Below, piece by piece: positions 19,516 through 28,537 of a stretch of DNA of 64,000 nt; position 1 is the first letter of the stretch, and each line of letters begins with the position of its first letter. The stretch is taken from NCBI RefSeq assembly GCF_900215155.1, contig NZ_LT907980.1, positions 2,976,001 to 3,040,000 on the forward strand. Direction: 5' to 3'. Source of the stretch: Marinobacter sp. LV10R510-11A (GTDB lineage Bacteria > Pseudomonadota > Gammaproteobacteria > Pseudomonadales > Oleiphilaceae). The notes below the pieces were generated by a model. It did no database searches and was not told the origin of the DNA. It saw only the letters and a program-made list of their open reading frames with translations. The translations under genes and the position numbers were made by a program.

Positions 19516-19688
19516 GCCTTTTAGAATGTATAAACCAATACGTTGATACCGTTAAGACACGATCACCGACTGGATGTTACATTGCTGTTGAACTAAAATT
19601 TTTGAGCACTCGTTCCAGAATACCGGAACTTTTCCGGAACCTAAACAAATACAGAGACTCCCCCCAAGCTGCTAAGGAGCGGAATCCC

Positions 19689-20309
19689 ATGAAAACTTCG
19701 GTGCATCCAGCCCCCCAAGATTCACTGATCGAAGACCTGAAGAGAGGCGATTCATCTGCCTACAAAAAGGCCGTTCGGGAATACTCTCCGGGCATGCTGG
19801 CCGTTGCTCGGTTTTATCTGGATCATTCCAGTGCGGAAGAGATTGTCCAGGACTGTTGGGTTACGGTGATCGATGCCATTCAGAAATTTGAAGGCCGTTC
19901 CGGCCTGAAAACCTGGCTGCACCGAATTGTCGCCAACCGCTGCAAGAACAAGCTCCGATCCAGCAACAGGGAAGTAGCCATTGATTTTACCGAAAGTCTC
20001 GAGCCGGCGCTTGCCGACCGTTTCAATGCCAAAGGCCGCTGGGACCTGCCGCCAAAACTTAAGTTTCACGAATCTGCAGATATATTGATGGAAAAAGACG
20101 CGCTCAGTGATTGCCTGGATAAACATCTGTCGGCATTGCCAGAAACCCAGTGCTCAGCTCTGATGCTTTACGAAGCCCACCAACACAAATCCGAGGATGT
20201 CTGTAACATTCTGGATGTCAGTGCCTCTAACCTTCGTGTACTTTTACACCGTGCGAGGCAGAAGATCTTTCTCATGGTGGAAACCTTCCAGGAGACGGGC
20301 GAATGTTAA
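19689..20309 (+). CDS. ECF-type RNA polymerase sigma factor
   Basis: 206 residues from the ATG at 19689, which follows AAGGAG. Region 2 (MLAVARFYLDHSSAEEIVQDCWVTVIDAIQKFEGRSGLKTWLHRIVANRCKNKLR) and region 4 (LSALPETQCSALMLYEAHQHKSEDVCNILDVSASNLRVLLHRARQKI) are both present and region 3 is absent, as in the ECF group. The next gene, a zinc-finger anti-sigma factor, overlaps by 7 bases, so the two are a sigma/anti-sigma unit. Confidence 0.9.
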   Translation: MKTSVHPAPQDSLIEDLKRGDSSAYKKAVREYSPGMLAVARFYLDHSSAEEIVQDCWVTVIDAIQKFEGRSGLKTWLHRIVANRCKNKLRSSNREVAIDFTESLEPALADRFNAKGRWDLPPKLKFHESADILMEKDALSDCLDKHLSALPETQCSALMLYEAHQHKSEDVCNILDVSASNLRVLLHRARQKIFLMVETFQETGEC

Positions 20310-20560
20310 TGTGCAGGGACTTGGCCGGAATTGCCAGCGACTACATCGATGGTGAACTGGCCGGCCGACAGGACCTGTCTGTGAAGATGCATCTGATGAT
20401 GTGCAAGGACTGCCGCACGTTTATCGGCAACCTTCGCACGAGCACGGATCTTATGAAGGCACACTCCTCCGGCAAGCCGAACGAGGAATTCATGCGTCGA
20501 ATTGATGAACGGGTGGCAGAGGCCCTTCAAGCTTGGAAAGAGAATAGCGGAGACGAATAA
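20303..20560 (+). CDS. Zinc-finger (zf-HC2) anti-sigma factor
   Basis: 85 residues. It has the anti-sigma zinc pattern: Cys4, His30, Cys34 and Cys37 (HLMMCKDC), with the helix ASDYIDGEL between. There is no membrane helix, so it is a soluble, probably redox- or metal-sensitive anti-sigma that holds the preceding ECF sigma. The start codon overlaps the end of the sigma gene. Confidence 0.85.
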   Translation: MLMCRDLAGIASDYIDGELAGRQDLSVKMHLMMCKDCRTFIGNLRTSTDLMKAHSSGKPNEEFMRRIDERVAEALQAWKENSGDE

Positions 20561-20682: not shown

Positions 20683-21451
20683 TTAATCGGCTTCAAAAAT
20701 CAGGGTTTCCGGGTGAAAAGTGTACCAGGCAAACCAGAAAGCCCTGGTCGCGGGCAACAGTTGGCCGGATTCATCGCGCAATTCAGCTGAGGGTACGTCC
20801 GGATTATAATGAATGCTGACGTTCTTACCGCCTACCCGATCCTCAAGAACGGCACCATGATCAGCCAGTTCGGGGAATGGCCAGGCCTTGCTCTCGCCAT
20901 TGTGAGTCCAGCCCAACACCCAGGTTTTCGGGTGATATTTCCGGCTGGTGTGGGTCACCGGAAACCGCCCGACCCTCAATCTGTGACCATAGAGATTCGG
21001 TCTGGTGGTCGTACATCAGCAAGTCACTGTTGTAGAGCAGGCCCGAAACACCAAAGGTCAAATGCCGGCCATCCACCACTGGGTCAAATGCCATGCCGGT
21101 GCCACAGAGCGGGCAGAAGGTGATCAATATCGGTTCGTCGTCAATAGCGTGATTGACGATTTCATGCCAATTCAGAATGCCAACAGGGTAAGCAAACCGG
21201 GCTCCCCCATGATCGTAGGTCAGCATCAAATCATCAGCACGCCAGAGTAAGGTTTTCGTGGGGTTCTCAAATATTGGATCATCTATTGAGGGGATGCCAT
21301 CACGGGGTGGACCTCCCCGGAGGATTTCATCAACCGGCACCCGTGCGGTGCTGAGATCAAATCCGTTTTTCTGCTCTGCAATGAGCGGCTGTGCCGCAGC
21401 CAGGAACGCTGCGATAACAATTATCTGTGTCCGTATAGTCAGTATTTTCAT
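20683..21451 (-). pseudogene. DUF3179-family secreted protein, frameshifted
   Basis: The ATG at 21451 follows GGAGG and begins a signal peptide (MKILTIRTQIIVIAAFLAAAQPLIA). Family motifs follow: LMLTYDHGGARFAYPV, PILITFCPLCGTGMAF and LWSQIEGRAVSG. At about 20950-20975 the frame changes: the first frame stops at 20861, while THTSRKYHPKTWVLGW and the conserved end continue in another frame to 20683. A small indel separates the halves. Function of the family is not established. Confidence 0.75.
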
Positions 21452-21514
21452 AATCACCACCTCCACTCAAGCCTGACGGCTTACAAGGTGAGAGACCCCT
21501 GAACAACCGGAGTG

Positions 21515-22005: not shown

Positions 22006-24174
22006 TCAAGAATTGCGGGGATAACCTTTCAATGCGGGCCTGCCGAGCAGAAATCCTTGCATCTCATCACAGCCTGATACCGCCAGCCACCTCGCCTGGG
22101 CTTCTGTTTCAACCCCTTCGGCAATGACCTCAAAGCCCAGGTTGTGAGCCAAGGTGATGATGGTTCTGCACAAGGCTTCATCCTGATCGTTATCCGGCAA
22201 GCCGGTCACGAACGCACGATCGATCTTTATCCGCGAGACCGGCAAGGCCTTGAGATAAGCCAGCGAGGAGTACCCGGTTCCAAAATCATCCACCGCCAGG
22301 GTCAGACCCAGATCGCGAAAGCGCTTCAGCGTTGCCATTGAGCATTCGACATCGTCCATCAGAGCGGTTTCAGTAATCTCCAGTTCCAACTGGCCGGCAC
22401 TGACGTCAAACCGTTTCAGCATTTCATTAATGCGTTGACTCAAGTCCCGATCAGACAACTGCAAGGCCGATACATTGACCGCAATCCGTCCGGTAAATCC
22501 TTCATCGATCCAGGCTTTTAGCTGACGGATCGCCTGCTCCAGAACCCAGTCACCGACTCCGGAAATCAGTCCGGTTTGCTCAGCCAACGGTATAAATTCA
22601 GCGGGCGACACCAGCCCATGCACAGGACGATGCCAGCGCAGCAGTGCCTCATAACCGACACAACGCTTGAGTCGATCAAACAGAGGCTGGTAATACAGCT
22701 GAAACTGATGCTTCTGGACAGCGAGTTTCAGATCCCCAATCATTTCCTGCCGGCGATGCATCTGGTCACCAAACTCCGATGCAAAGAACTGAACCCGCTC
22801 GCTGGGCGATTTCTTGGCACGGTGCATGGCGATTTCTGCGTGACTCAACAGCGTTCGGGCATAGTTTCCGTCCAGAGGAGTGATAGCTACACCCGCGCTC
22901 ACCTCGCATCCATAGGTTTTTTGGCCAATACGCACGGGCGCTTCACAGGCTTCAATAATCGCGGAAATACGGGCTTCGAGACTGTCAGACGCCCCCCGGG
23001 AACCCACGGTGATCAGCAACCCGAATACGTCACCCCCGAGCCTGGCGACATGGCCATGATCTACTACACGTCCCGCTAATCGACGCGCAATTTCTTGCAA
23101 AACGCGGTCTCCGGTCTCATGTCCCGCCAGACCATTGAGGGCCTGAAAATCATTCAGGCCAAGAACGAGGACCGCCTCGCTGCCAGCCTGTTCCAGATCA
23201 CCACGATTTAAATGGCGATCCAGCTGGTCTTCAAAAAGGTTCCGATTGGCAAGGCCGGTTAATTGATCGTAAAGTGTTCTGATCTCCAGTTCCTGTTCGG
23301 TCTTGCGCAGGGAACGGGTACGCTCATCGAGTAACTGGTCCAGATTTTTATTCAGCAGCTGCATCCGTGACAGGTAGGAGGCATTCTGTGTCAGCATGCC
23401 ATTGAATGCGCGTTCCACTTCCCCAAACTCGTCACTTCGCTCCGGAGATGCCACGTATTTCCCAGGGTGCTCTGCATCGTCGCCAGCCCTGGCAATTCGC
23501 TCCCGAAGTTTAAGTAAGGGCGACAGCATCATTCGGTCGACCACAGCCATAGTAACCACAGTGACAAACACCGCGATAAGAAGTGAGAGGCCCAGAATAC
23601 GAAAAACAAACGCGATCAGCTTGCCCGACACATCGCTCACATCCGCCCGGGCCAGAATTTCATAATCTGACAGTCCGGGACTCGTACTCCAGGATAGGTC
23701 AATGACCCCTTCAGCCGGCCGTACTGCACCTCGAAGATCGCCGTTCGCAGGTTGTGGATGCGTAACCGGCTCACCCGCTTCAATGCGGGTGCCTCCCGCT
23801 ATCATGGAAATACCGGTCAGAGAGCTATTTGCCAGAAGCACCTCAAGCCTGCCGGGGGTAACCGCCTGCCCGCTTTTGCTGTTAAGAAACATGGTTATCG
23901 CCTGGATGGCAACCTCAGCACGCTGGCGGAGCAGATCTTCCTCGTAATTGCGATAGGAGGGGAAGAGAATCGCCACTTCAATGGTCAGAATAGCGGCGAA
24001 AGCCGCGAGAGTAAGGTTCCTGCAAAGACCGCAACCAGCAAGCCGCCTGGCCCACTCTCTGAAAGAGCGCCGCAGCTCCAGATTAGCGGCAGTTTTCGAC
24101 ACGTCAGCAATCAATTCAGCCTCTGTTCCCTCTCCGGATTTCATGCGCACCCCACAGACTCTCAATTCGAACAT
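22006..24174 (-). CDS. Membrane-bound GGDEF/EAL protein, probable c-di-GMP phosphodiesterase
   Basis: 722 residues: a membrane helix (about 50-72), a periplasmic sensor region, a second helix (about 185-210), a HAMP-like linker, a GGDEF domain (about 310-465) and an EAL domain (about 475-715). The GGDEF active motif is degenerate (LGGDVF), so cyclase activity is doubtful. The EAL domain keeps its key residues: YEALLRW, ELEITETAL, DDFGTGYSSLAYL, IDRAFV, EGVET and QGFLLGRP. It should therefore degrade c-di-GMP. It stands alone. Confidence 0.87.
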   Translation of the reverse strand: MFELRVCGVRMKSGEGTEAELIADVSKTAANLELRRSFREWARRLAGCGLCRNLTLAAFAAILTIEVAILFPSYRNYEEDLLRQRAEVAIQAITMFLNSKSGQAVTPGRLEVLLANSSLTGISMIAGGTRIEAGEPVTHPQPANGDLRGAVRPAEGVIDLSWSTSPGLSDYEILARADVSDVSGKLIAFVFRILGLSLLIAVFVTVVTMAVVDRMMLSPLLKLRERIARAGDDAEHPGKYVASPERSDEFGEVERAFNGMLTQNASYLSRMQLLNKNLDQLLDERTRSLRKTEQELEIRTLYDQLTGLANRNLFEDQLDRHLNRGDLEQAGSEAVLVLGLNDFQALNGLAGHETGDRVLQEIARRLAGRVVDHGHVARLGGDVFGLLITVGSRGASDSLEARISAIIEACEAPVRIGQKTYGCEVSAGVAITPLDGNYARTLLSHAEIAMHRAKKSPSERVQFFASEFGDQMHRRQEMIGDLKLAVQKHQFQLYYQPLFDRLKRCVGYEALLRWHRPVHGLVSPAEFIPLAEQTGLISGVGDWVLEQAIRQLKAWIDEGFTGRIAVNVSALQLSDRDLSQRINEMLKRFDVSAGQLELEITETALMDDVECSMATLKRFRDLGLTLAVDDFGTGYSSLAYLKALPVSRIKIDRAFVTGLPDNDQDEALCRTIITLAHNLGFEVIAEGVETEAQARWLAVSGCDEMQGFLLGRPALKGYPRNS

Positions 24175-24289
24175 TGCTAAACAGACACGGTAAATACCGA
24201 AAAATTACACCAAAACGATCCGTTCGGTGGGTTTTCTTGCGCGCAAGAATCAGCACTCACTCGAGGGTCCTTTGCCATCACAAAAAAAA

Positions 24290-24306
24290 GCGGGGCGCGC
24301 GGCCCC
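24290..24306 (-). terminator. Rho-independent terminator after the repeat-cytochrome gene
   Basis: On the minus strand a GC-rich hairpin (GGGGCC-GCGC-GCCCC) is followed by C and a run of eight T (24289-24282). It lies about 40 bases past the cytochrome stop codon and would end the operon that begins at 28537. Confidence 0.7.
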
Positions 24307-24344
24307 ACCCAAAATCGACAATGGAATTGTCAATGCGAACAACG

Positions 24345-24969
24345 CTACTGTTTGTCGATATACTTCTGCTGCTCCTGGAGAGTGTATTCGGTCAATGCTG
24401 CCAACTCCTTGGAGCCCCATCCAAGAGGCTCGGCGGCCATCGGTGCCACCATGCATATCTGGACCATTTCATCCAGGTGCACCATGTCCATACCGAAGTC
24501 CCGCTTGCCCATGGCAACAAAATGCGGGTACTGATTCTTGAACGTGTCCAGGTAGACCATACCGTTGGTATGACAGGTGGCACAGGACAAACCATTGGAG
24601 GACAGACTATTGTCGTTGAACAGCTTTTCGCCCAAGGCTCTCAGTTCCGCAACATCACCCTGGTAGGGTGCGTAACCTTCGGGGCGGCGCACGGCTTTCT
24701 TGAGGCTCGCTGATACGCCTTCGCCTTCAGCCTCTCCTTCCGCCTTGCCCTCGGCTTCTCCCTCGCCTTCGGCGCGGCCTTCAGCTTCGCCCTTTGCTTC
24801 CCCTTCAGCCTCTCCCTGTGCGGCTTCCGCAGAGGGAATCAGGCCAAGATTAGAGCCTGAGTGTATGTTGAAACCTGCCACAGCCACCACGGTCATCATA
24901 GGTACGGATATCATGAGATTTCGCGACAGCTTGCTTAAAAGCGCCTTTCGTTTTTTTTTCTTTGGACAT
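24345..24969 (-). CDS. Secreted c-type cytochrome with Glu-Gly repeat segment; frame broken at an A9 tract
   Basis: The best start is the ATG at 24969 (GGAGG eight bases upstream), giving MSKEKK, like the start of the repeat peptide gene upstream. Reading on requires loss of one A from a run of nine A (24959-24951); then about 207 residues follow: signal-like leader (to about 50), Gly/Glu/Ala/Lys repeats (about 52-84), and a monohaem cytochrome domain with CATCH at about 129-133 and a possible distal Met (QICMV). Without the shift only a TTG start (24977) opens this frame. Either an assembly error, phase variation or slippage. Last gene of the TTL-like locus. Confidence 0.75.
24717..24815 (-). 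repeat. Coding repeats for Glu-Gly-Ala segment in the cytochrome
   Basis: About 33 codons encode an irregular array built from GEAEG, GEAKG and GRAEGEGEAEG units, using almost only GAA/GAG, GGC/GGA and GCC/GCA codons. It matches the repeat style of the peptide at 25717-26028 and joins the leader to the haem domain. The array is coding, without spacers of a CRISPR type. Confidence 0.85.
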
Positions 24970-25064
24970 GTCAGCAACCTCCGGTCGTATTTTCGTTATT
25001 CAGGGTGTAGACCCTTCATGCAGGTCTTTGAAGCACGGACACCCTTGCCGCGCATTTTCTGAGT

Positions 25065-25628
25065 TCAGGCACTTCGGGCCAGGTCTGCCGCCTGGCCTTC
25101 CAGATATCGCAGCGTTGAGGGATGAACGCCGAAATCAGAGCTGACCTTCACCCCGGCCTGTTCGGCCAGCATGCCGATGATGGCCATATGGTGGATGGTG
25201 TGGCTGGCCAGAAACACCAGTTCACGTTCCACGCTTGTCTTCACAGTCTGATGCTTACCGGCACTGTTATGGCGCATGTTCAGCTCATCCGCACAGGGTC
25301 CTTCAAATCGACTGCGAAGGGCCCCAACGGTCTCCTCCAGGCAATCCCGTGCCGCCCTTCTGTCTTTTTCCAGGGACAGATCCCGGTTGCGGTTCTCGTA
25401 GTCAAGCAGACCGCCAACACCAGAAGTGGCTGTCAGCAGCGCGCTGTAGTGATCGATAATGTGCCGGACATGCTTGCCGATAACATGTTGATTTCTCGCA
25501 CCAAAGCACTGCCGGTACAAAGTTCCCGGCATCTGGTCAAGCAGCTGGACAAGCTGCCCGATCGCATGAACATTTTCATCAACGATCTGGCCCAAGGCCC
25601 GGTTATTGTCTGAAACTGGCTGTTTCAT
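25065..25628 (-). CDS. DinB-superfamily metal-binding protein
   Basis: 187 residues from the ATG at 25628. It is a four-helix DinB-fold protein with histidines placed as a metal site: GKHVRHIIDHYSALL (about 51-65) and FLASHTIHHMAIIG (about 139-152). Members act as thiol transferases or unknown metal enzymes. It lies between the repeat peptide (88 bases upstream) and the repeat cytochrome (95 bases downstream) on the same strand, so it likely belongs to the same pathway; its reaction is unknown. A longer frame to 25703 lacks family character at its start. Confidence 0.8.
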   Translation of the reverse strand: MKQPVSDNNRALGQIVDENVHAIGQLVQLLDQMPGTLYRQCFGARNQHVIGKHVRHIIDHYSALLTATSGVGGLLDYENRNRDLSLEKDRRAARDCLEETVGALRSRFEGPCADELNMRHNSAGKHQTVKTSVERELVFLASHTIHHMAIIGMLAEQAGVKVSSDFGVHPSTLRYLEGQAADLARSA

Positions 25629-25716
25629 CGCATTTATCCGTTTTACGTTGTTCTTTACGGCGCTGTTAACGGCCGTGTGGACACAAGACGGACTCATGCC
25701 CACACTTGTTCGCTCA

Positions 25717-26028
25717 TCAGCCCTTGGCTTTACCTTCTGCTTCGCCTTCGCCCTCGGCTTTACCTTCTCCTTCTCCTTCGCCTTCGGCGTTGCCTTCTGC
25801 TTCTCCTTCGCCCTTGGCCTTACCTTCTGCCTCGCCTTCGCCCTTGGCTTTACCCTCGGCCTCTGCTTCGCCCGCAGCGACCATCAGATAGTTAGCGTCA
25901 AGGGTGGTTTCCGCGGCCGATACGTTGAACGCCGAAGCGCCGACAATGATGGCGAAAACGGGTCCTGTGTACGCGACACCCCGCGCGAGCTTGCCAAGCA
26001 ACCGCTGTTTCTGTGTTTCTTTGGACAT
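25717..26028 (-). CDS. Secreted Gly/Glu/Ala/Lys decapeptide-repeat protein, candidate substrate of the TTL-like ligase
   Basis: 103 residues. Residues 1-39 form a basic n-region, hydrophobic core and AxA-type site (NVSA-AE), i.e. a Sec signal. Residues 53-102 are five exact 10-residue units of pattern G-E-A/G-E-A/G-E-G-K/N-A-K/E, plus a final Gly. The leader matches the cytochrome leader downstream (MSKE, LL-x-KL-x-R, P, A-x-FN, AA before GEAE). The ATG follows AAGGGGAT. It lies 85 bases after the TTL-like gene. I recognise no named family; role as a modified precursor is inferred from context and from the likeness to tubulin C-terminal tails. Confidence 0.8.
   Translation of the reverse strand: MSKETQKQRLLGKLARGVAYTGPVFAIIVGASAFNVSAAETTLDANYLMVAAGEAEAEGKAKGEGEAEGKAKGEGEAEGNAEGEGEGEGKAEGEGEAEGKAKG
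25720..25872 (-). repeat. Five tandem 30-bp coding repeats
   Basis: Codons 53-103 of the peptide gene form five 30-bp units with sequence variation mainly at silent and Ala/Gly or Lys/Asn/Glu positions. The period is exact, so copy number could change by slippage or recombination. The opposite strand gives long open frames rich in Phe/Ser/Leu, which are only mirror images of the repeat. Confidence 0.9.
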
Positions 26029-26113
26029 GATGTATCCCCTTCCGTTGTTTCACATTACCGCCGGGCGGGTTGCCCGGCTTTCGTTATACCCGGAGCCAGA
26101 GGTCCAGCGGACC

Positions 26114-28537
26114 TCAAAGGCTCCCGGATTTTTGCGGCTGTGCTGTAGAACACCGCTTGTCGAGTGCCGCGGCAGCGACCTCAATATTGTTCATATCAAC
26201 CAGGTACCGATCGCAGCTTTCCAGCCACTCCGCGAGCCGGGTAAACCCATGGGTATCGAGCGGCTGGCCACCAGCGGAACAACACCCCGAAATAAGCTGC
26301 CTCAGCGTCTCATTGACCGGAATTGCCCGTAAGCCGTCCTCTTCCCGGAGCCGGGCCATACTGGGAATGAGCACCGCAGACACCGTGTAGCGACTGCCGG
26401 TGACAGCCGAAGAAGCCGGCACAAGACAACCCTTGCCAGACTCCGGCGACAATCGGCCACCAATACCCTGGTCGCCAAAGACGCTTTCGGATAAACCCTC
26501 CGAAACCTGCAGCGGCAACCCCAGGCCCGAAATCTGGTAGTCGGTGCCCGAAAGCAGCAGCGCGCCGCGGCTATGGTCAGCCTTCAGACAGGCCGACAAC
26601 GCCAGCGTCAGGGCATCATGGACGGCTGGTTCGGAGTTGCCGACCAGAAAGGCCTGCCCGGCCAGGGTCGGGCCCGCAATCAGACCGGCGTCTATGGCAA
26701 TTTCCTGCGCTTCGGCGGCATGCGTCGCCAGGCAGGCCATGAGCGCTGAGGCAACGCCGGACAGGGGCAGACGGGAACGAAGCACCCTGCCCTCCAGAAT
26801 CAGGGTGAAACCCGGTGTATCGCGCACGATCTCCAGCCTGGCAAGCAACTCGGTCCCGGCGACACCGGCAACCGCCATAGGCTCAAGCAAGGCTTCGATC
26901 CGGCCAATCAGCGGCGCACTGTCCGTGAACAACCGCACCCGGAAGCGTCCGCAGTCCAGTACTCTCGAAAACGGCGTGGAGTCAGGGCTCGGCGAGGTTG
27001 CCGGTGCTGCCGGCTGGTTAGCGGATGCGTCGGACTGGATCAGGAATCGGTTATTCACCCAGTCGCCGAGGGTATTCCAGACATCGTTGCGAATTGCCCA
27101 GGCGTCCGGAGCGGCGGGCATACTGCGGCTGGCCGATTCGTAAAGGGTTGCAGCAATGTCGTCCGGCCCTGCACCTTCGGTGGCCATTAGCCAGATCAGG
27201 GAAGCGGTTTCGTTTAGACCGCTCAGGTGACCGAGGCGGGTGTCATATAGATACACCTGGTCTTCACTGAGGGTGTCTTCCGCCACCCAGCGTTCAAGGC
27301 GTGGTTGCTGTAAGGGACGATCAGACAATGCCTGGGCCACCACCCAGTCGGACAGCCGTGGCAGCGCCATGAAAGGCAGATACGCTGCCGGGTCTGCCCC
27401 GGGAACCAGGTTCTTGAAGCCGCCGCTGCGGGCTATTTCATCTTGGGATTCCCGGACTAGCCGCTCAACCACAGAGCCGGTTTCCAAAGCGACAGGCTTG
27501 CTATTAAGGCTCACGATTTTAACCATGTCGGCAACCAGTGAGCCCTTGATACCCTCCTCAATGTCGCCGCCGCTTTCCGGCCCGGCGCACACTTCCAGAG
27601 AGGGGCTCAGGTTGCACTCCAGCACCCAGGGTTTGAGCTCTTCATCGACCAGACAGTCAATACCCATCAACTCATAACAGCCCCGGGTGTCCGCACCCAC
27701 CACCCTTGAGCGTTCACGCATGGGTTCCAGGGCTGCCAGACAGGTCAGGGCCACCAGGTCTTCAATCTTGGCAAACAGGGCCTTGTCATCATGGCCCTGT
27801 TCCCGAAGCCACTCCCGGTAACGGTCAAAGTCCACGAACTCCACCGGCACCTCGGCATCCAGGTTCAGGGCATTAACGTCCGGGTTGGTCAGATAGCTGT
27901 ATGGATTGTTAGCGTTTTCCTCGTTATAGGGCGCGGAAGCCAGCTTGGCAAAGCCCTGCCGGTAGAGATACACCCGAAAAGGCGATACCGAGGACACCAG
28001 AACATAAAGACGGAGAACATACTTCCGGCCATGCATGGTGTGGGGGTTTTCGAGGTATTCCTGAACCATCCAGGAGGATTCCAGCGGCACATCGGCCGGG
28101 TCCCCAACCAATTGGATACCTTTACCTCGCGCGGCGTTCTTCGGCTTCAGAATCCAGCGTTTACCCGGATTATCCAGCGCTGCCTGCTGGAACGCGTGGT
28201 AGTCTTCCGGCATAGAGAATACTCCTGGCACAAACCCGAGGCGTTCGGTCAGGTGTCCGCTACCTTTGTCCTGTTGTTCAACCCGCTCGCGCAGGTCCAT
28301 CAGGCTGCGGTAAAGGCGGCTCTTTACTGTGAGCGCATTGTTGCCCGGAATGTGATTGATTTTCCGTTCCGGCCCGACCTCGCTGAAGTCGTTCTGATCC
28401 GGCATGCCGGTATACCAGCAGGCGTCCCACTTCTCAGCACTTTCTGCCTTTTGCCACTGAGATTTGTCCAGCGATTGCTCAAAGAACCTGTCCTGCTCGT
28501 AGGACCTGTTGCCACCCATCCAGTAGTACCGAGTCAT
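26114..28537 (-). CDS. TTL-like ATP-grasp ligase fused to PqqD-like and HprK-like domains
   Basis: 807 residues from the ATG at 28537 (GGAGAG upstream). Residues about 50-345 carry tubulin-tyrosine-ligase motifs: NHIPGNNALTVKSRLYRSL (61-79), WILKPKNAARGKGIQLV (128-144), VQEYLENP...GRKYVLRLYVLV (158-181) and GIDCLVDEELKPWVLECNLSP (292-312, with the metal Glu307/Asn309). Residues about 410-500 look PqqD-like (YDTRLGHLSGLNETASLIWL), a peptide-recognition fold in RiPP pathways. Residues about 520-795 resemble HPr-kinase-related proteins, but the P-loop is replaced by VGNSEPAVHDAL. Family knowledge: TTL enzymes ligate amino acids to acidic tails. Inference: it modifies the Glu-Gly repeats encoded just downstream, before their export. 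Confidence 0.8.
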   Translation of the reverse strand: MTRYYWMGGNRSYEQDRFFEQSLDKSQWQKAESAEKWDACWYTGMPDQNDFSEVGPERKINHIPGNNALTVKSRLYRSLMDLRERVEQQDKGSGHLTERLGFVPGVFSMPEDYHAFQQAALDNPGKRWILKPKNAARGKGIQLVGDPADVPLESSWMVQEYLENPHTMHGRKYVLRLYVLVSSVSPFRVYLYRQGFAKLASAPYNEENANNPYSYLTNPDVNALNLDAEVPVEFVDFDRYREWLREQGHDDKALFAKIEDLVALTCLAALEPMRERSRVVGADTRGCYELMGIDCLVDEELKPWVLECNLSPSLEVCAGPESGGDIEEGIKGSLVADMVKIVSLNSKPVALETGSVVERLVRESQDEIARSGGFKNLVPGADPAAYLPFMALPRLSDWVVAQALSDRPLQQPRLERWVAEDTLSEDQVYLYDTRLGHLSGLNETASLIWLMATEGAGPDDIAATLYESASRSMPAAPDAWAIRNDVWNTLGDWVNNRFLIQSDASANQPAAPATSPSPDSTPFSRVLDCGRFRVRLFTDSAPLIGRIEALLEPMAVAGVAGTELLARLEIVRDTPGFTLILEGRVLRSRLPLSGVASALMACLATHAAEAQEIAIDAGLIAGPTLAGQAFLVGNSEPAVHDALTLALSACLKADHSRGALLLSGTDYQISGLGLPLQVSEGLSESVFGDQGIGGRLSPESGKGCLVPASSAVTGSRYTVSAVLIPSMARLREEDGLRAIPVNETLRQLISGCCSAGGQPLDTHGFTRLAEWLESCDRYLVDMNNIEVAAAALDKRCSTAQPQKSGSL

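Follow-up and report, generated by a model that had tools for sequence, protein, structure and literature searches.

Marinobacter sp. LV10R510-11A probably possesses an RRE-guided, RiPP-like protein-modification system that acts on a repeat peptide and a cytochrome c, with a predicted chemistry. In the more specific reading, towards which we lean, the system would parallel the tubulin code in bacteria: a TTLL-like enzyme, steered by its RRE, would write branched glutamate (or glycine) chains on the repeats of an exported peptide and of cytochrome c, and the signal peptide would double as RiPP leader. Each part is of a known kind and their combination appears to be new: no description of a TTL ligase combined with a RiPP system was found in the open-access literature searched. 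The genes lie on the minus strand of the window (the whole 64-kb stretch of DNA that was analysed), which is part of a 4.44-Mb single-contig genome. The features are:

26114-28537, minus strand: ligase of 807 amino acids with TTL/TTLL, RRE (PqqD-like) and PEPCK/HprK-fold parts, from profile and fold matches
27368-28537, minus strand: TTL/TTLL ATP-grasp domain, residues 1-390
27032-27301, minus strand: RRE/PqqD-like domain, residues about 413-502
26138-26980, minus strand: PEPCK/HprK-fold domain, residues about 520-800, without Walker A
25717-26028, minus strand: repeat peptide of 103 amino acids, a signal-peptide-like leader (LLxxLxR, YxxP) followed by five decapeptide repeats
25720-25873, minus strand: 30-bp repeats, 5.1 copies, 85% matches (Tandem Repeats Finder)
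25065-25628, minus strand: DinB-fold protein (PF05163, E 2.3e-7)
24345-24977, minus strand: SoxA/TsdA-like cytochrome c with leader and E/G/A/K repeats, starting here at TTG (PF21342, E 9.7e-9)
24717-24815, minus strand: E/G/A/K repeat tract inside the cytochrome, read from the translation
24288-24310, minus strand: possible terminator hairpin with T-run

An earlier note, made from the letters of this window, had described a ligase, a peptide of five decapeptides, a DinB-fold protein and a cytochrome in this order on one strand. The order is borne out, the 30-bp unit matches the five decapeptides, and both downstream proteins were confirmed by profile. The terminator placed after them stands in part: a hairpin with a T-run is present, yet the 6 terminator-like sites of the region are in no clear excess over shuffled sequence (mean 5.2, sd 2.7). 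The cytochrome frame starts at TTG in the window because a homopolymer near its start differs in length from that of two near relatives. The closest named ligases, those of Marinobacter sp. ELB17 and M. gelidimuriae, are 97% identical.

Assignment of the ligase to the TTL type, proposed in that note, is supported by sequence comparison. The match to PF03133 (TTL) is strong (E 1.5e-55; 189 bits against a cut-off of 20.1), the TTLL-like character is seen in sequence and fold alike, and the catalytic ATP-grasp residues K131, E307 and N309, located by alignment to TTLL6/7, are kept in 72/72 relatives. The position of TTLL6 Q180 is occupied by Arg in 49/72 relatives and by Lys in 23/72; in a passage of PMC7970040, Arg there is said to favour gamma-linked glutamylation. 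A named NCBIfam system was rejected for the ligase, which matches no NCBIfam family above its cut-off.

The central domain would link the enzyme to RiPP pathways. The PqqD match of the window's ligase alone is weak (E 0.0057), but PF05402 matches all 43 C-terminal halves of relatives at E <= 0.1 (best 9.9e-11), which upholds the earlier note on this part. TIGR04353, a PqqD model of the HPr-rel-A type, gives weak matches in 15/43 (best 5.4e-4). The best relatives of the domain are lasso RREs, both by sequence and by structure, and a predicted RRE fold for the PqqD-like part is supported. VIA-align tables provided a second look at Foldseek hits, and families missing from them are not thereby excluded.

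The C-terminal part had been called HprK-like. Its predicted fold is indeed PEPCK/HprK-like, but the part has no kinase match in Pfam or NCBIfam, and the Walker A pattern occurs in 0/72 and 0/43 relatives. An active kinase is doubtful because the pattern is absent from all 72, and this candidate was set aside. The fold bears on a reading that gives this domain the main task: it would phosphorylate the precursor, like the kinases of LPP and paeninodin pathways. An RRE and an HprK-like kinase are a known pair (PMC13381572). The missing Walker A, the lower conservation of this domain relative to the TTL part and the scarcity of Ser (0.8-1.6% of repeat residues) nonetheless make phosphorylation very unlikely.

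The candidate substrates were compared through 87 distinct open reading frames with leader and repeats, chosen by regular expression from the window and the fetched loci. The expression needs a leader-like motif and misses some frames, among them those of L075 and L091 and the L090 cytochrome; duplicates, 12 loci in all, were passed over. The set comprises 53 peptides (without CxxCH) and 34 cytochromes (with CxxCH). Leader and repeats are conserved across genera. The leader has LLxxLxR and then Pro at a fixed spacing; YxxP is present in 53/53 peptides and 14/14 halomonad cytochromes, and the Marinobacter cytochrome leaders keep Pro in 20/20 and Tyr in 0/20. YxxP is the motif bound by lasso and LPP RREs according to passages of PMC6784204, PMC13381572 and PMC12710340, one of which records that hydrophobic changes such as LxxP are tolerated. 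That the leader looks like a signal peptide containing this lasso-RRE motif goes beyond the earlier note. A leader model made from peptides only also detects the cytochrome leaders. The heme of c-type cytochromes is attached outside the cytosol, so the cytochrome N-terminus is expected to work as a signal peptide too. As a protein-database query, a peptide leader from L020 retrieved only 3 proteins.

In the 87 repeat regions Glu makes up 40-43% of residues, the remainder being mostly Gly and Ala, and charged and small residues alternate in 96% of steps, against 50% expected in random order. Glu is the sole abundant repeat residue with a reactive side chain. The earlier note had offered Lys-Glu crosslinks as one possible product. 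In such a reading a graspetide-like ligase would form the isopeptide bonds within or between repeats. The window's own peptide repeats do hold Lys at regular intervals (7 of 48 residues), and ATP-grasp enzymes form lactams in graspetides (PMC8939145). As general chemistry, however, crosslinking is less supported and is disfavoured by repeat regions that hold no Lys at all (35/53 peptides, 14/34 cytochromes); the TTL type of the ligase domain also speaks against it, and we regard it as unlikely. Overall, the earlier interpretation is partly supported.

Addition of a single residue at the peptide C-terminus would be a second, TTL-like outcome. TTL itself adds a C-terminal Tyr, and three peptides end in GY. 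The 52 peptide ends counted nevertheless carry 12 different dipeptides and the cytochrome repeats are internal, so that such addition is very unlikely; C-terminal tyrosination was rejected on the variability of these ends.

A ligase of this kind, joined to an RRE, is carried by some marine and salt-loving bacteria, beside peptides and a cytochrome that are its likely targets. Among 124 Marinobacter genomes the ligase occurs in 29 (only as remnants in G442 and G465). The 26 genomes with the leader peptide all have the ligase (26/29 against 0/95 ligase-free genomes; Fisher 9e-24, ignoring shared ancestry). In 201 Halomonadaceae the ligase was found in 47 (truncated in G873, doubtful in G787) and the leader in 46, distributed as 45/47 with ligase and 1/154 without (Fisher 3e-41, again ignoring shared ancestry). 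The exception is the halomonad G960, in which a leader cytochrome was found but a ligase was not; in G414 ligase and cytochrome occur without a separate peptide. In 26/27 Marinobacter and 43/46 Halomonadaceae cases the leader follows the ligase downstream, on its strand and less than 1 kb away. Close relatives beside ligases are partly expected, since the leader model (A1) was built on 12 peptides that adjoin ligases, although the searches covered whole genomes. This count excluded G442, G465 and G787 (E 7.8e-4), merged split hits of one genome and retained G873, which has no leader. Co-occurrence, which the earlier note had proposed to test, is found. The case that would have refuted that note, ligase homologs with no repeat- or leader-type gene ever beside them, is contradicted where the ligases are full-length.

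Most leader-positive halomonad genomes (40/46) carry at least two leader genes, the ligase-adjacent peptide plus either a second peptide or a leader cytochrome. In L075, L077, L079, L080, L081 and L083 the second peptide lies 3' of a DoxX gene and close to an ECF-sigma-like gene. Peptides of this kind also occur in a Competibacteraceae contig and in three genomes from a further gammaproteobacterial family. Broader samples were searched as well. The class sample (369 genomes, of which 11 had a match) also held 7 short TTL-only hits, and no leader peptide was seen among the neighbours of the one short homolog inspected (L021). In the order sample 10/390 genomes matched, two only weakly; the phylum sample yielded 3 strong hits in 398, the source genome being counted among them, and a further fragment at E 5e-4. 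A DinB-fold protein regularly accompanies the ligase: its gene lies at most 2.5 kb downstream in 47 of 54 loci (one genome is represented twice, by L011 and L042). The seven misses comprise two loci at a contig edge, two with the gene upstream and three in which it was not found.

The Marinobacter cytochromes differ with the ligase. The cytochrome model matches 62 of the 124 genomes, and the match extends into the leader in 27/27 with a near-complete ligase (a few of these ligases are split into two frames, and the G408 cytochrome match is in two pieces). Of the 33 ligase-negative genomes with a cytochrome hit, 29 were examined; G410 and G463 (weak partial hits), G417 (internal stop) and G444 (contig end) were left out. 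All 29 lack leader and E/G repeats and have 7-21 PC motifs and 14-22 Cys ahead of the heme site. Replacement of the E/G repeats by Cys-rich repeats where the ligase is missing also goes beyond the earlier note. Decayed cases agree: in G442 and G465 ligase remnants accompany cytochrome matches that stop short of the leader, and in G417, which gave no hit for the ligase, the leader match is interrupted by a stop.

With their common leader, common repeats and gain and loss together with the ligase, peptide and cytochrome look like joint substrates of it, as the earlier note had supposed in pairing them. The repeats could instead be unmodified acidic spacers, the ligase acting on another target and its neighbours being merely co-regulated. 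In its favour, no product is known, and neither the DinB protein nor the other partners have been assigned a role. This reading is improbable given a common RRE-motif leader on otherwise unlike proteins that come and go with the ligase.

From anatomy, folds, leader motif and co-occurrence we infer the binding, reaction, donor, order of export and purpose of the RRE-guided modification as follows. (i) In the cytosol, the RRE would capture the YxxP stretch within the signal-peptide leader, a grip that may also delay export. (ii) The TTLL domain, with ATP, would join an amino acid to side-chain carboxylates of repeat Glu via an isopeptide bond, by analogy with initiating TTLL enzymes on tubulin tails. 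(iii) The donor would most likely be glutamate, possibly glycine. (iv) The modified product would be exported afterwards, and the cytochrome loaded with heme. (v) A small exported peptide and a redox protein would then both bear brushes of acidic side chains, which might serve in binding metals or cations, or in docking.

Counted against this mechanism are the lack of an observed modified product, the Marinobacter cytochrome leaders without the Tyr of YxxP, and the genomes G960 and G414.

If true, the system would form a new RiPP-like class. We know of no earlier TTL-family ligase in an RRE-guided pathway and of no earlier RRE-guided pathway that decorates cytochrome c; it would be the first of each as far as known. 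It offers a small tubulin-free system for studying acceptor and donor choice by TTLL-type enzymes, as well as a tractable bacterial case of polymodification on acidic disordered repeats.

Among known systems, the polyglutamylases TTLL6 and TTLL7 share with the ligase the ATP-grasp TTL fold, the catalytic residues and Glu/Gly-rich disordered targets. Unlike them, this ligase is bacterial and has an RRE and a kinase-fold domain in the same chain, and its likely targets are exported peptides and cytochrome c. RimK and SidJ are bacterial enzymes described as adding glutamates to proteins. RimK extends ribosomal protein S6, and SidJ is a kinase-fold effector; to our knowledge neither uses an RRE or has exported-repeat targets. 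Graspetides resemble the locus in having an ATP-grasp enzyme beside a small repeat-bearing precursor. Their cores hold Ser/Thr/Lys donors and Glu/Asp acceptors for rings, whereas the enzyme here is TTL-type and the cores are poor in Ser and Thr (0.8% and 0.2% in peptide repeats) and often Lys-free. As in RiPP pathways generally, an RRE domain belongs to the modifying machinery, and the genetically linked precursors combine a conserved leader with a variable core. Lasso and LPP pathways share the RRE fold, the YxxP leader motif and an HprK-like part. Their RREs are discrete; here a TTL ligase replaces the known tailoring enzymes, the leader is signal-peptide-like, the kinase part has no Walker A and the core is a Glu repeat. 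No lasso-type leader peptidase or Asn-synthetase-like cyclase was found among the annotated open reading frames of the loci. Bufferins and other MNIO RiPPs have Cys cores and MNIO enzymes in place of Glu repeats and a TTL ligase. According to PMC12452194, they too use a Sec signal peptide as leader, are suspected to include long protein precursors and have DoxX and sigma-factor neighbours, and a modifying partner is suggested to mask the bufferin signal peptide. The double use of leader and signal peptide at this locus resembles theirs.

In the Marinobacter genomes that lack the ligase, the orthologue of this cytochrome c has repeats of a Cys-rich, NPC type (fetched loci L030-L036, L040, L041 and L096-L115). 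Each of these proteins contains 7-21 PC motifs. The repeats lie N-terminal to the heme domain, and in some of the proteins they are also found C-terminal to it. The start of the window's own cytochrome is marked by a homopolymer (24948-24969), the length of which is unlike that in two near relatives. Because of this difference, the frame opens at TTG in the window; either a sequencing error or real variation may account for the length.

Other genes in the window are:
22006-24174, HAMP-GGDEF-EAL protein, encoded immediately downstream of the cytochrome gene
20683-21466, DUF3179 gene, in two overlapping frames
19602-20560, genes for an ECF sigma factor and a zf-HC2 protein

The HAMP-GGDEF-EAL protein occupies the same place in many of the Marinobacter loci. 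The DUF3179 gene, split in the window, is a single frame of about 313-318 aa in relatives. The ECF sigma factor and zf-HC2 protein, which are possible regulators, occur near the cytochrome in ligase-positive and ligase-negative Marinobacter loci alike.

Short TTL-only proteins of other gammaproteobacteria (L021-L027) match the ligase without its RRE part. The repeat peptides of L066-L068 end in GY after a Glu/Gly-rich tail, an arrangement that resembles the C-terminus of alpha-tubulin. A DoxX gene is found near the ligase or its peptide at these three loci, and also at L013, L063, L076 and L084-L086. DoxX is likewise common in bufferin clusters (PMC12452194).
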